Shown: piece by piece, positions 26,859 to 48,783 of the stretch
How the letters are laid out: each line of letters begins with the position of its first letter
How positions within the stretch are numbered: the first letter of the stretch is position 1
Assembly (NCBI GenBank): GCA_963924555.1
Contig: OZ004583.1
Location: 558,001 to 622,000 of the forward strand
Direction: 5' to 3'
Source of the DNA: Crambe crambe
Lineage: Eukaryota; Porifera; Demospongiae; Poecilosclerida; Crambeidae
DNA length: 64,000 nt
Notes under the pieces: generated by a model
Seen by the model: only the letters and a program-made list of their open reading frames with translations
Databases searched by the model: none
Told to the model about the DNA's origin: nothing
Translations under genes and position numbers: made by a program

Positions 26859-27460
26859 ATGATGTCAAGTAAGAGAAAAGTTCAGGTAATTTTTGTCTGC
26901 TAGCTACACTCTATTGATTTGCTAGCTAGCAATAATTAAGGCCTATTTTTAGCTATCTACCTAAATAATACTGAACTTGAAGTGCAGTAAAAAAATTAGC
27001 TACATAGAACTAGTCTGTAGCCATTTTCCCCACATTTTTATTGCCATCTATTTTCTTTTCCCTCTCCCTGCAGACTCACATACGAAGCCTGAAGGAGGAC
27101 TCTGTCTTCAAACTTTGTGACTACAGGCCTACCTGCAGGAAAGGTGACCGGTGCATCCGTGCCCACAGTGAAGCAGAACTTGATGCATGGAGAGAAGAGT
27201 TCTATAAAACTGTACGAGAATACAAACCAAAGTTCTTTTTCAAGTTATGTAATCACAGATGCCAGAACCCAAGGTCTTGTTCCTATGCACACAGCCAAGC
27301 CGAGCTGGAGTCATGGTTTTCAACCTGCAATGGTCCTTGTCGGGAGAGTCATGGGAAAATGCTGGATATTTGTCGGAATGGGCAAGACTGCGAATATGGA
27401 GAGGAATGCAGATATGCTCACAATCCAAGGGAACTCCAAATTTGGGAAAGAGGCAAATAA
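26859..27460 (+). CDS. Triple CCCH zinc-finger protein (possibly 5' part of the CCCH-HEPN gene)
   Basis: Exon 1 (26859-26885) codes MMSSKRKVQ; exon 2 starts at 27074. Stopping at the TAA at 27460 gives 137 aa. Three CCCH fingers are each followed by an acidic helix: CDYRPTCRKGDRCIRAH, CNHRCQNPRSCSYAH and CRNGQDCEYGEECRYAH (Cx3-5Cx5Cx3H). The repeated pattern C..H-x-AEL-x-W is like ZC3H7-type proteins and suggests RNA binding. Two other endings are possible. A GC donor at 27453 (phase 1) could join 27579, adding a short tail that ends KSQKFIR. The same donor could instead join 30039 in matching phase, merging with the next gene. The finger 1 region has a decayed copy at 37 kb. Confidence 0.7.
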
Positions 27461-27815
27461 TAGTTTTACTTATTATCAGAGAGTGCGCTAGCACTCTCTA
27501 AGTAGGGATGGCGGGTCAAAGGTCATAGGACTGTATAAACTAAAAACTCTTCTTTCTCTTCTACCCTTACTCTACAGGTTCTCAGAAGGCTACAGTGAAT
27601 TATTATATCTACAAAGAAGAGAGGAGAATGTTCAAAAGCCAAAAATTCATTCGCTAACATAAGAAAAAAATGAGTTCTAAAATTGACTTTTGTTCTATTT
27701 CTTTATAATCATCAAAATTCTGCTTTGGCCATCTGTTAGAGCGGCACCTAGAGGCTGATCTTTTGCTATTAGTTTTGACTAAGGCTCTACTTCACTATTC
27801 GATAGCACTCGGAAC

Positions 27816-28334
27816 TAGTCTGGCGCAGCCAGCCCCAAGCACTTCCGGAACTCCAGCGTAAGGGTCTGGTACAGTCAATTGCAGCTCCGTTCGAATTTCC
27901 GTCGGAAGCGTATGGTTTGTGCGTGCCATACAAATTTAGGCCTGTCAACACTTCTATTTATGGCACGCACAAACCATATGCTTCATACGGAATGTTCGAA
28001 CGGAGCTGCAATTGACTGTAACACACAATACTTAACTTCGACTTGTTCCCGGCCTAAATTTTTTATTTACGTAATATGACGTTTTAGTGTCGTAAAATGA
28101 CGTTGTCTTGTTTAATTGTCATAGCAACACCTCGCGCGAAGAAAAAAAAATGGCCTCCCGATCCCGTAATAATTATGGTTGTTATAGCTACCACGTCATT
28201 AAACGTCATAACGCGTCAGTTAATGATATTCATCGTTTTAGCAGGATTTCTGCTAAACGGGAACAAGTCGAAGTATTGTGTGTTACCCTTGCGCTGGAGT
28301 TCCGGAAGTGCCTGGGGCTGGCTACGCCAGACTA
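27816..28334. mobile_element. Mutator-like MITE with 50-bp TIRs and 9-bp TSD
   Basis: A 519-bp element has arms 27816-27865 and 28285-28334, beginning TAGTCTGGCG and agreeing at 47 of 50 positions. ACTCGGAAC is duplicated at 27807-27815 and 28335-28343. A 9-bp target duplication with long TIRs is typical of MULEs. Within it lies a second inverted repeat (about 27871-27930 against 27957-28018) around CAGTCAATTGCAGCTCCG. No transposase is coded. Confidence 0.87.
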
Positions 28335-29209
28335 ACTCGGAACACTGCTAATCTTTCTACGCCATTTTGAAGGGGGCGGGGCTTATGGGCGGAGCCACGT
28401 AAGCTTAAGTTTCACTCCTTGCTGAATTACAGTACAGATGCTCATCCTATAGTAGCATTATAGCCAGTACTTTGCTGTAGTGTAGTCAGCTCACTTCACC
28501 ATGCCGTGTACATGTCATTTACATTGCTGTTGCTGTAAAGTTTTATATCAACAAAACTTAAATAGCTAAACAAATTCTTCAACCAGAGACACTGTATGTA
28601 CCTACAAAAGAGGTTTATGTAGAGCTGGCTTTGTATAGTACTGTACTGTAGCCTCCCTCATTCAACTTCAAGCACTAAGAAAAAGGATAGAAACAAGTGA
28701 GCGTAAAAAATTTCTTCAAATAAAAAGGTTAAGTAGGGATAGCCTAAAATCTAGCTGGGCTATCTATAATGTGCTGCAGCCTCGTATGAAAAAAATCTTC
28801 ACGATATTACCTCATAAAAGGGGTGGGGCAATTAATAGCAGTTCTCCTCATATAACACCTGCACAGGATGTGGCCATTTGATGGCATCCACTATTATGAT
28901 CACTACACCAAATGCATAAACTCCCCATACTCCTCCCTCAAGCAAGACATACGTACCATCTCAATAATTATTTCAGTGATCACATAGCTATGTAACAATT
29001 AGCTAATGCTATTCACTTTTTAAAATGTTCACTCCTTTCAGTACTCCATTACACTGCAGATGATCATCCTTCAAACTCTCCTCCCTGAACAGAATGAAAT
29101 ACTATAAAATTTGATCATTAAATTAATTTAGTTCAATTAAGGAAGCATTAGCTATACCTTTAGTGTCTATCAATTTTCATAATCACAAAGAAAAAGAATG
29201 CAAATAAGT
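28335..29209. other. No gene; diverged copy of palindrome arm
   Basis: AT-rich. About 28677-28745 is a diverged direct copy of 29187-29255 (AAAAAATTTCTTC, AGTAGGGAT), so palindrome-related sequence is spread here. No coding exon was found. Confidence 0.5.
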
Positions 29210-29701
29210 GAATGCAAAAAATTTCTTCGAAATAAAAATGTGAAGTAGGGATGACCACAAATTTAGCACATAATAATTATTATAGCTATTATAACTGCAG
29301 CTTCATTATGAAAACCAAGTACTGCAGCATCGAAGCAGTATGGCCCAAAAATCTAGCTGGAATATGTATTATAACTGCATGCAAGAGAGTGAACTTAGTG
29401 AAGTGACCCTTACCCATCATCAAGTACAAGATACTATTCCTACTTCACTCCCATGCCAAGGGAGTGAAGTAGGAATAGTATCTCGTACTTGATGATGGGT
29501 AAGGGTCACTTCACTAAGTTCACTCTCTTGCATGCAGTTATAATACATATTCCAGCTAGATTTTTGGGCCATACTGCTTCGATGCTGCAGTACTTGGTTT
29601 TCATAATGAAGCTGCAGTTATAATAGCTATAATAATTATTATGTGCTAAATTTGTGGTCATCCCTACTTCACATTTTTATTTCGAAGAAATTTTTGCATT
29701 C
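29210..29701. repeat. Near-perfect ~490-bp palindrome
   Basis: Left arm 29210-29452 and right arm 29460-29701 are inverted copies around a 7-nt spacer (ATGCCAA). Differences are few (for example CAAGTACAAGA against TCTCGTACTTG, and a one-base poly(A) indel). It would form a very long hairpin in DNA or RNA. Confidence 0.9.
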
Positions 29702-30003
29702 ATAGCCATAGCAACATAGCAGTATATAGTGCACATTTACTCCACTATCACATAACAGCTAGGCTAGACTCTCATCCTGCTCTCATGTAGCAATGTGTGG
29801 GAGAGTTCATAATAAACCTGTAATTCAACTGATAATGTAATGTGTGCCTTTTAAGTAGCTATATAATAATAAGGTAATGAACTTCTGCATCATAGTACAT
29901 ATTTATACTATGAGAAGTAATAAAGTCACAGACTGATGCTACCAGGTACTAGCTAAATGTGCAAATAGTTAACTAACGAGGAGGCAGTTGTATAATTAAT
30001 TAG
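29702..30003. other. No feature recognised
   Basis: About 300 AT-rich bases before the CCCH-HEPN reading frame. A short upstream first exon of that gene could be here, but none was identified. Confidence 0.4.
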
Positions 30004-31395
30004 ATGGCTGTATTGTGTTTCCTATCGTTATTAGAACATCATGAGATGTACATTGAGTCGGAGGACAGCATACCAGAGAGGTGTACTTACACTGTCAAGC
30101 CTCCAACCTGCCAACTGGGTGTCACTTGTCCTTACGCTCACACAGAGAAGGAGAGACATGAGCTTATCAAGAAACTGAGCTATGACCAAGTAGCAATTGA
30201 GCGTCCGGTACCAAGAGCTGATAAGTTGCTTCCTTATAATTTATGTGAGAATCACAAAAATGAAAGGAAGAGTTCGAAAGATGGTGAGTGCATATATGGA
30301 GTCCGATGCAGACAGGCACACACTGAAGAAGAGTTGAGATCATGGGAGATAATGAGGAAGAAGAAGAAAGGTGAGTTAAAGATACGACCATTTTATGGAG
30401 GAGAATCAAGATTAGTGATGTGTCCTCGACGTGGAAGTTGTAGTGATGATGTTGACTGTGTTTATGCTCACAGCATGGCTGAGCTCCAGGTGTGGAAGAT
30501 GACAGGTGAGTGATGTACGTAAATGCTAGGGTTTTAGCTACTAGATTATTCATTCCTTTGCAGCCACATCTACAATGTTTGGTGCCATGGAAGATGGAAA
30601 CCGTGCTGATCCATTCTTGGTCTCCCTTGTTGACTACCAACGGAGATTCAGTGATGAATTAGCTAAGGTATTGAATAAGGTGGTCATCACAATCCACTCC
30701 ACTCTCAAAGACGAAGAAACTCTAGGATCCTTCATTGACTACACCAGAACTAAAATAGACTTGAGCACCCAGCAAGGCCAGCAGTCTGTCAGCCTCTATG
30801 ATGTTCAGTATCTATTAGGCTACATTCAGAGAAATGTTGCAGTTTTTGCCAAGTTCCTCGAAATGGACGAGTCTGATTTGGTGGGCATTGTTTCTGATCT
30901 GTTGGAAGTGCGTAACATGCTTGCTCATGGGATGTGTCTGACCCTGGATGCTCCAGAGAAGCTGGACATAGCAATCAAGTTCATCCAGAGGGGGATAAAT
31001 CTGGTGGAGTGCAGTGCAAGAAAACTGCAGGACAAGGTGAAGTGTATTGAGATATTATAGTGTGTTATATAATGTTTCTGCTTTTACATACAGTGAGTGG
31101 TTGTGCTTAATTTGGATATAAATTTCTTTTTCTCAATACACAGGAAATTCAAGAGGGCCTTTCGGAACTCAGGAAGATTCAGAAGACCTTCAGAGACTAT
31201 GTGGCCTATCAGCACGAGAGTGAGAAGAGAATGAAGTCCTATGATGCCTTGAATTCTCGTGACAAGAAAGCAAGTGCCAGTAAGGTCCTGAAGCTGATTC
31301 AAGAGCTCTTTGAAGAAGAGGAGGAGCCAGGACAAGTGACCACATTTCTTGCCATCTATTTGGGTGCACGCTTTAGGAAGACACAGGTCAAGTAG
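30004..31395 (+). CDS. CCCH zinc-finger protein with HEPN-like domain
   Basis: Exons 30004-30505, 30564-31036 and 31144-31395 give up to 408 aa. The N-terminal half has three CCCH fingers: CTYTVKPPTCQLGVTCPYAH (Cx8Cx5Cx3H), one ending CIYGVRCRQAH, and CPRRGSCSDDVDCVYAH. The second half is all-helical and holds LLEVRNMLAHGM, an Rx4H motif in a context like HEPN_Swt1 domains. In active HEPN RNases this Arg/His pair cuts RNA. A Lys/Glu-rich helical tail follows. The start is uncertain: ATG 30004 is the first in frame, but an acceptor (TTATTAG at 30038) could join the exon ending at 27452. A role as an RNA-targeting effector is inference. Neighbouring fingers at 27 kb are paralogous. Confidence 0.78.
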
Positions 31396-31849: not shown

Positions 31850-32095
31850 TGGCAGTTTGGGAGGTGTGGTTCATAATGAGGGCAGGGGGACTCCTATTCA
31901 GGGAGTTCATGTAGTCCTGCATGTAGCGGTCCTTGGCTTGAGCAGTGTTGCGGGAAACATGACCCCTTCTTGACTTGGTCCAGCACCAGCTACAGTGAAA
32001 AGCAAATACTAAATTTCCCCAAGGATAAGCAGAATTATAGCTACATACAGTGTAAAGGACATTCTGAAAGAGTACAAACCTCAACTGAAGGCTGT
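31850..32095 (-). pseudogene. Decayed duplicate of MAGI last exon
   Basis: Minus-strand sequence matches the true last MAGI exon at 37817-37702 and its preceding intron (acceptor, GAAAAGCAAATA, AAATTTCCCC). It keeps GAGPSQEGVMF, then loses one base relative to MAGI and goes out of frame before the QDYMNSLNRSPPA part. No other MAGI exon is nearby, so it cannot make MAGI. Confidence 0.85.
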
Positions 32096-34234: not shown

Positions 34235-34506
34235 CTATAACCGATGCTGTGCTGTGCAACTCTGTGGTGCAACTCACACAACCAGTGCCAGTTGCCAACA
34301 AGCTATAACCGATGCTGTGCTGTGCAACTCTGTGGTGCAACTCACACAGTCAGTGCCAGTTGCCAACGAACTATAACCGATGCTGTGCTGTGCAACTCTG
34401 TGGTGCAACTCACACAGTCAGTGCCAGTTGCCAACGAACTATAACCGATGCTGTGCTGTGCAACTCTGTGGTGCAACTCACACAGTCAGTGCCAGTTGCC
34501 AACGAA
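34235..34506. repeat. 68-bp tandem array, four copies
   Basis: Exact 68-bp periodicity: units start CTATAACCGATGCTGTG at 34235, 34303, 34371 and 34439. Units 2 to 4 are nearly identical. Diverged solitary copies lie near 34777, 34862 and 35690-35830. Open frames over the array are artefacts, because 68 is not a multiple of three and each frame repeats the same words. Confidence 0.95.
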
Positions 34507-34959
34507 CTATAACCGATGCTCTCTACACAATAATTTTTGTGAGTTGCACAAAATTTTTTGTACAATTCACCAATGGAAGTTTCACCACCAACCAATCAAT
34601 CACACATGCATGCAATCAAACGATTCGAACCGGTTCAATTATTGCACAACCGACCAACACCCTTCTCCAACACACTCATTGCACAGTGTACTCATTGCAC
34701 AGTTCTTCCTCATTGCACAGTACTTCCTCATTGCACAGTACTTAATTTACTCTCACACTCATCACACAGCAGCTACTCACAACCGATGCTCTTCACACAA
34801 TTATTTTGCAGTGCAACTGGCACAATCAGTGCCAGTTGCCAACCTAACTAACCACTCAAAACTATAACCGATGCTGTGCTATGCAACTCTGTCGTGCAAC
34901 TCACACAATCAGTGCCAGTTGCCAACAATCTGTAAAACTGTTGTTCTATGCTCACACAC

Positions 34960-37014: not shown

Positions 37015-37190
37015 CACTGTAATTCCCCACAGCCATCTGTTTTCTTTTCTCCCATATGAAGGACCTACCTGTAAGAAAGGTGACCGGTGCATCCATGCTA
37101 ACAGCGAAGCAGAACTTGCAGCACATGGAAAGAAGAGTTCTTTTGCAGCATGAAGTGGATGACAGCATTCAAATTGGGAAATAACTTACA
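37015..37190 (+). pseudogene. Decayed CCCH zinc-finger fragment
   Basis: Matches the exon 2 start of the CCCH gene (27074 onward): GPTCKKGDRCIHANSEAEL against RPTCRKGDRCIRAHSEAEL. Homology also covers the intron before that exon (TTCCCCACA, CCATCTGTTTTCTTTTC), so it is a genomic duplicate and not a retrocopy. The finger His is lost (HAN), most of fingers 2 and 3 is deleted, and sequence resumes near TTGGGAAATAA. Confidence 0.85.

Positions 37191-37701: not shown

Positions 37702-48783
<11,082 letters not shown>

Follow-up and report, generated by a model that had tools for sequence, protein, structure and literature searches.

A candidate gene of the sponge Crambe crambe predicted to combine six CCCH zinc fingers with a HEPN-like domain

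CCCH zinc fingers are established as an RNA-binding family, and Regnase-1 (ZC3H12) combines one such finger with a PIN-like, metal-dependent ribonuclease (RNase) in a single chain, which degrades the mRNAs it binds. Here we describe a candidate gene of the demosponge Crambe crambe, whose predicted product carries six CCCH fingers and, after them, a HEPN-like domain. It lies on the + strand of a window of 64,000 nucleotides (the whole stretch of DNA analysed, positions 558,001 to 622,000 of contig OZ004583.1, assembly GCA_963924555.1), to which all coordinates below refer unless a contig is named. A silicatein-like protease frame elsewhere in the genome (L058), in which Ser replaces the catalytic Cys (CGSSYAF), is in keeping with a demosponge. 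Known combinations of HEPN and CCCH are found in Roquin and in some KEN proteins (PMC3710099, PMC4346627). Roquin (RC3H1/RC3H2) carries both in one polypeptide, binds RNA and acts in mRNA decay in an immune setting (PMC4346627), and one Roquin gene has been tabulated for a demosponge (PMC11172303). The KEN proteins, such as RNase L and Ire1, possess an RNase of the HEPN superfamily fused to a kinase, together with CCCH in some members, and Swt1 of eukaryotes combines a PIN nuclease with a HEPN domain termed inactive (PMC3710099). In a mussel paper, HEPN and CCCH are mentioned in unrelated places (PMC11817969).

The sponge protein, as modelled, resembles each of these systems in part. In contrast to Roquin, its six fingers come first, and neither RING nor ROQ was present among the Pfam matches of the 533-amino-acid model at E-values up to 10. 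Pfam found no kinase, unlike in KEN proteins, and no PIN domain, unlike in Swt1 and in Regnase-1, the latter being the nearest analogue known to us of a protein that finds and cuts its RNA. The fingers are followed by AHS..EL..W, a likeness to the CCCH fingers of ZC3H7A/B and HELZ, and the weak PDB matches included a ZC3H7A finger (2d9m, E = 0.06). Moreover, when the genome was searched (143 Mb, 119 contigs), the best match outside the window (E = 0.05) was a gene on contig C18 with CCCH and C2H2 fingers, which we take to be ZC3H7-like, TPR and C2H2 being features of ZC3H7, as an SF1 helicase is of HELZ. However, no helicase, TPR or C2H2 domain was present among the Pfam matches of the sponge protein. 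Relatives were also sought in viral and genome contig collections, in which 12 and 19 pattern matches, respectively, were examined and none was confirmed by tblastn. In a partial reading of the literature outside subscription journals, six CCCH fingers followed by a domain with an intact Rx4H motif, in a protein lacking kinase, RING and ROQ, were not found described. It is plausible that this architecture represents a new variation on RNA-regulating proteins already known, and not a kind of its own.

The gene model comprises five exons between 26859 and 31395 (Table 1), whose spliced frame is open and encodes 533 amino acids. Three of the four introns are GT-AG, and the second is GC-AG. The pattern C-x3-14-C-x5-C-x3-H was run on the stop-to-stop frames of at least 50 amino acids in the window (37,750 amino acids, six frames), which gave ten matches: four in a repeat at 34268-34895, and six corresponding to the fingers of this gene. 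The latter formed two same-strand blocks of three, as described in the initial annotation, with motif starts at 27116, 27248, 27371, 30082, 30244 and 30421 on the + strand (amino acids 24-40, 68-82, 109-125, 152-171, 206-231 and 265-281 of the model). The spliced protein scored 35.1 bits against the CCCH family (PF00642), versus a curated cut-off of 20.5, while the exon 2 frame alone, with 18.6 bits, remained under this value. The six fingers were absent among the 26 matches listed by a genome-wide zf-CCCH search, which indicates that they have diverged. Since CCCH fingers bind RNA as a family, this protein would be expected to do so.

We consider that the five exons probably constitute one gene. 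This single gene, put forward in the initial annotation, is the better-supported model, with splicing across 27453-30034 as its predicted part. As had been stated, the last base of exon 2 is 27452, in phase 1, and a GC donor follows; an in-phase acceptor was also found at the other end, but its AG lies at 30033-30034, so that exon 3 starts at 30035 and not after 30038 as had been annotated. Among the AGs scanned between 29950 and 30085, five were in phase with exon 2. Three of these, located upstream of 30004, led to an in-frame stop just before 30004, and the two open ones gave exon starts at 30035 and 30077. Only the acceptor of 30035 was open, in phase and pyrimidine-rich (70% pyrimidine at -23 to -4, equal to the acceptors of exons 4 and 5). 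Joining 27452 to 30035 produces a linker of 26 residues between fingers 3 and 4, and the linkers within exon 2 measure 27 and 26 residues. One gene is thus favoured, since the sole open, in-phase and pyrimidine-rich acceptor gives a finger spacing like that of exon 2. It is also favoured because exons 2 and 3 were more alike than expected from their common C and H residues: their alignment scored 131.4, which was reached by none of 1,000 shuffles with C and H fixed (maximum 96). Finger by finger, finger 4 was nearest to finger 1, finger 5 to finger 3, and finger 6 about equally near to fingers 1, 2 and 3. This order is not co-linear, so the likeness between the exons counts as support only; a strict co-linear exon duplication was rejected for the same reason, despite the good overall alignment.

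Several observations weigh against a single gene. The disputed intron has an imperfect GC donor, and the finger spacings within exon 3 (34 and 33 residues) are unlike the 26 residues at the proposed join. AATAAA sequences at 29811 and 29919 may serve as polyadenylation signals, and an acceptor at 27577, inside a repeat, is in phase, and is stronger and more pyrimidine-rich than that of exon 3. If used, this acceptor would give a hypothetical three-finger isoform ending after 26 further amino acids; the corresponding exon is unlikely to be ancestral, as it lies within a dispersed repeat (40 of 1,967 candidates scored). The last two features would also suit two neighbouring genes, or a single gene now split by the repeat: one product would be a protein of three fingers that ends at 27460 (or at 27657, by way of the repeat-derived exon), and the other a separate protein with three fingers and the helical domain, starting at 30004. 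Indeed, the unspliced exon 2 frame stops at 27458-27460, immediately past the GC donor, and the ATG at 30004 is in frame with exon 3. However, the first ten codons from this ATG would cross the pyrimidine-rich, acceptor-like tract, and both the 26-residue linker and the matching phase would be due to chance. Moreover, only about 313 nucleotides outside the repeat (12 + 301) would separate the stop at 27460 from the ATG at 30004. We regard two genes, or a split one, as rather improbable.

The C-terminal part of the one-gene product was examined for its relationship to HEPN domains, and we are fairly confident that its last domain belongs to them. The initial annotation had reported a helical domain with the sequence VRNMLAHG; the motif is present, but the helical region does not end with exon 4 and continues through exon 5 to 31395. 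The motif published for HEPN domains is Rx4-6H, the residue that follows R being polar (PMC3710099), and RNMLAH (codons 30911-30928) agrees with this rule, with R409 and H414 as the motif residues and R-N-x3-H intact. The optional Ex3[KR] motif of the same paper was not found near RNMLAH. Of the Pfam families, HEPN_Swt1 (PF18731), a profile to which the initial annotation had pointed, matched the domain best. Its E-value, corrected for all Pfam, varied between 1.8e-4 and 5.7e-4 with the stretch submitted, and its scores of 20.6, 21.8 and 22.2 bits were under the curated cut-off of 27.5. None of seven shuffled versions of the domain matched HEPN_Swt1, and a search of the genome with this profile listed only this domain (E = 0.020). 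Exon 5 alone matched DUF4749 (E = 0.018) and SAC3_GANP (E = 0.031), both under their cut-offs.

The scores under the cut-off count against a HEPN domain, as does the masking of R and H, after which no HEPN match was reported; the motif therefore carries much of the assignment. Two AlphaFold models, obtained for the domain alone and with one paralogue, were helical bundles whose mean confidence was too low to decide the fold (predicted local distance difference test, pLDDT, of 55.7 and 63.3), and with which fold searches found no HEPN structure above noise. These three results would all fit an unrelated helical bundle bearing R-N-x3-H by chance, an explanation that would suit one gene or two and overlaps with the other alternatives. 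On the other hand, the E-values after correction for all Pfam, the absence of matches among the shuffled domains and the position of the motif in a helix in both of the low-confidence models are at odds with an unrelated bundle, which we judge to be somewhat unlikely.

Elsewhere in the genome, a 314-amino-acid open frame in one exon was found to resemble the last domain (L011, G000:C20:3090311-3090640; E = 0.014 genome-wide and 5e-9 as a single comparison). Its alignment score was reached by none of 2,000 and none of 1,000 shuffles under two gap settings, under one of which the alignment extended into exon 5. From these alignments it is a probable paralogue, and its single exon could result from retrocopying or from intron loss. 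It does not possess the full Rx4H motif, R being kept or not depending on the alignment; Pfam found no HEPN domain in it, and the CCCH pattern had no match in the 9.9 kilobases fetched around it. Should this frame be a genuine relative, the domain could occur in the absence of the catalytic motif.

Such a relative, lacking the full motif, would be in keeping with one gene whose HEPN-like domain acts as a dimer or RNA-binding module and has no catalytic activity, similar to that of Roquin, the protein repressing or marking finger-bound RNAs via partners. Roquin, which has both HEPN and CCCH, contains a HEPN domain described as RNA binding (PMC4346627), that of Swt1 is the inactive one mentioned above (PMC3710099), and the helicase HELZ works by recruiting CCR4-NOT (PMC6769256). 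We nevertheless consider a non-catalytic role unlikely: the sponge domain retains R, N and H, and HEPN domains bearing the motif have been argued to be metal-independent endoribonucleases (PMC3710099). RNase activity is accordingly suggested here by the intact motif.

Taken as a whole, we tentatively place first, at less than even confidence, one five-exon gene for an RNA-binding protein with six CCCH fingers and a HEPN-like catalytic domain that would cut the bound RNA. RNA would be chosen and bound by the six fingers; two molecules would pair through their HEPN-like domains, the R and H of these forming a metal-independent endoribonuclease site; and this paired site would cut the finger-bound RNA, with a putative role in defence or in mRNA decay.

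Table 1. Positions in the window of the exons, the disputed intron, its repeats and the adjoining gene.
Feature	Position	Strand	Remarks
p38 MAP kinase gene (divergent), both candidate start codons	26768..26779	-	79 or 88 bases to start codon in exon 1
Exon 1	26859..26885	+	start codon, 9 codons, GT donor; phase 0 join to exon 2
Exon 2	27074..27452	+	CCCH fingers 1-3; phase 1 end at GC donor AGAG/GCAAAT
Putative GC-AG intron	27453..30034	+	2,582 nucleotides
Dispersed repeat element	27473..29702		about 1.7 kilobases without nested insert
Possible alternative terminal exon (hypothetical)	27578..27657	+	in dispersed repeat; acceptor pyrimidine-rich, phase fits GC donor
Nested repeat	27816..28334		inverted ends; 9-bp direct repeat ACTCGGAAC on each side; inside larger element
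Single-copy part of intron (intergenic if two genes)	29703..30034	+	matched only itself in genome
Exon 3	30035..30505	+	CCCH fingers 4-6; both ends phase 1
Exon 4	30564..31036	+	HEPN-like helical domain; R codon 30911-30913, H codon 30926-30928
Exon 5	31144..31395	+	C-terminal region and stop codon

The second intron had been described as purely transposon-like. About 2,230 of its 2,582 nucleotides are indeed repeat, but the stretch at 29703-30034 matched only itself in the genome, and the intron outside the repeat amounts to 20 nucleotides at the 5' side and 332 at the 3' side. The long intron may have arisen from an old, short one (about 350 nucleotides) by the addition of a dispersed repeat that itself carries a nested insert. 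The whole dispersed element, without the nested insert, was found at five of the seven loci fetched (L036-L040), with 91.9 to 97.7% identity over the portion at about 28412-29702; the other two loci (L041 and L042) held partial copies. Since L036 and L037 have the same flanks, the five whole copies represent at most four independent insertions. The flanks of 27816-28334 (before 27815 and after 28335) adjoin in L036-L040, which makes it a later, nested insert; it has many dispersed copies (40 of 681 candidates scored). In the copies listed for this insert, the sequences before 27871 and after 28018 are contiguous, which makes 27872-28017 a third-level insertion within it; a copy at C3:4266556 has a similar stretch. 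The start of the dispersed element (27473-27710) is a unit of about 235 base pairs, which occurs in tandem at some loci elsewhere (e.g., on contigs C16 and C12).

Near the end of the dispersed element, a palindrome was observed at 29217-29695, with 239-bp arms that are 99% complementary and separated by one nucleotide. The region 29200-29710 had many dispersed matches in both orientations (40 of 1,152 candidates scored, the region among them), and an assembly artefact was rejected for this reason. If the intron is transcribed, the palindrome would fold into a long hairpin in the pre-mRNA.

On the upstream side, the gene adjoins a p38 MAP kinase gene, as had been noted initially; MAPK14 and MAPK11 led the PDB matches of two of its exons. 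The 79-bp distance given in the initial annotation is that between the start codons when the first candidate p38 methionine is used, and it becomes 88 otherwise. Head-to-head genes with starts less than 1 kilobase apart are very common in the sponge Amphimedon (PMC4773876), so this spacing is not strong evidence of co-regulation. Other invertebrates are reported to have immune-type proteins that contain HEPN RNases (PMC8195603). The link between the present gene, p38 and immunity is weak.

On the downstream side, a broken copy of an exon 2 fragment (37064-37141, 86% identical) was found 10 kilobases away. Moreover, one stretch is present twice, at 31882-32082 and 37709-37905 (80% identical), and looks like an exon of a gene that we take to be MAGI-like from its PDZ-type frames. 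Judging from these likenesses, the exon 2 fragment and the doubled stretch are remains of a local duplication. Long GA/CT microsatellites were also observed among the exons of the MAGI-like gene, at about 40107-40420 and 45720-46024.

If the protein does cut the RNA held by its fingers, it would add to the animal effectors of RNA decay or RNA defence one whose single short chain, in an early-branching lineage, unites CCCH recognition and HEPN cutting. A catalytic HEPN domain in a find-and-cut role would be new; the concept itself would not, because in Regnase CCCH is already combined with another nuclease. It is doubtful, although conceivable, that a six-finger array delivers a catalytic HEPN domain to chosen RNAs without the help of a kinase, PIN, RING or helicase, with a repeat-derived acceptor that possibly removes the nuclease half. 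If the proposed history of the second intron is true, the locus would clearly illustrate how a dispersed repeat can lengthen a short intron and supply a competing acceptor.

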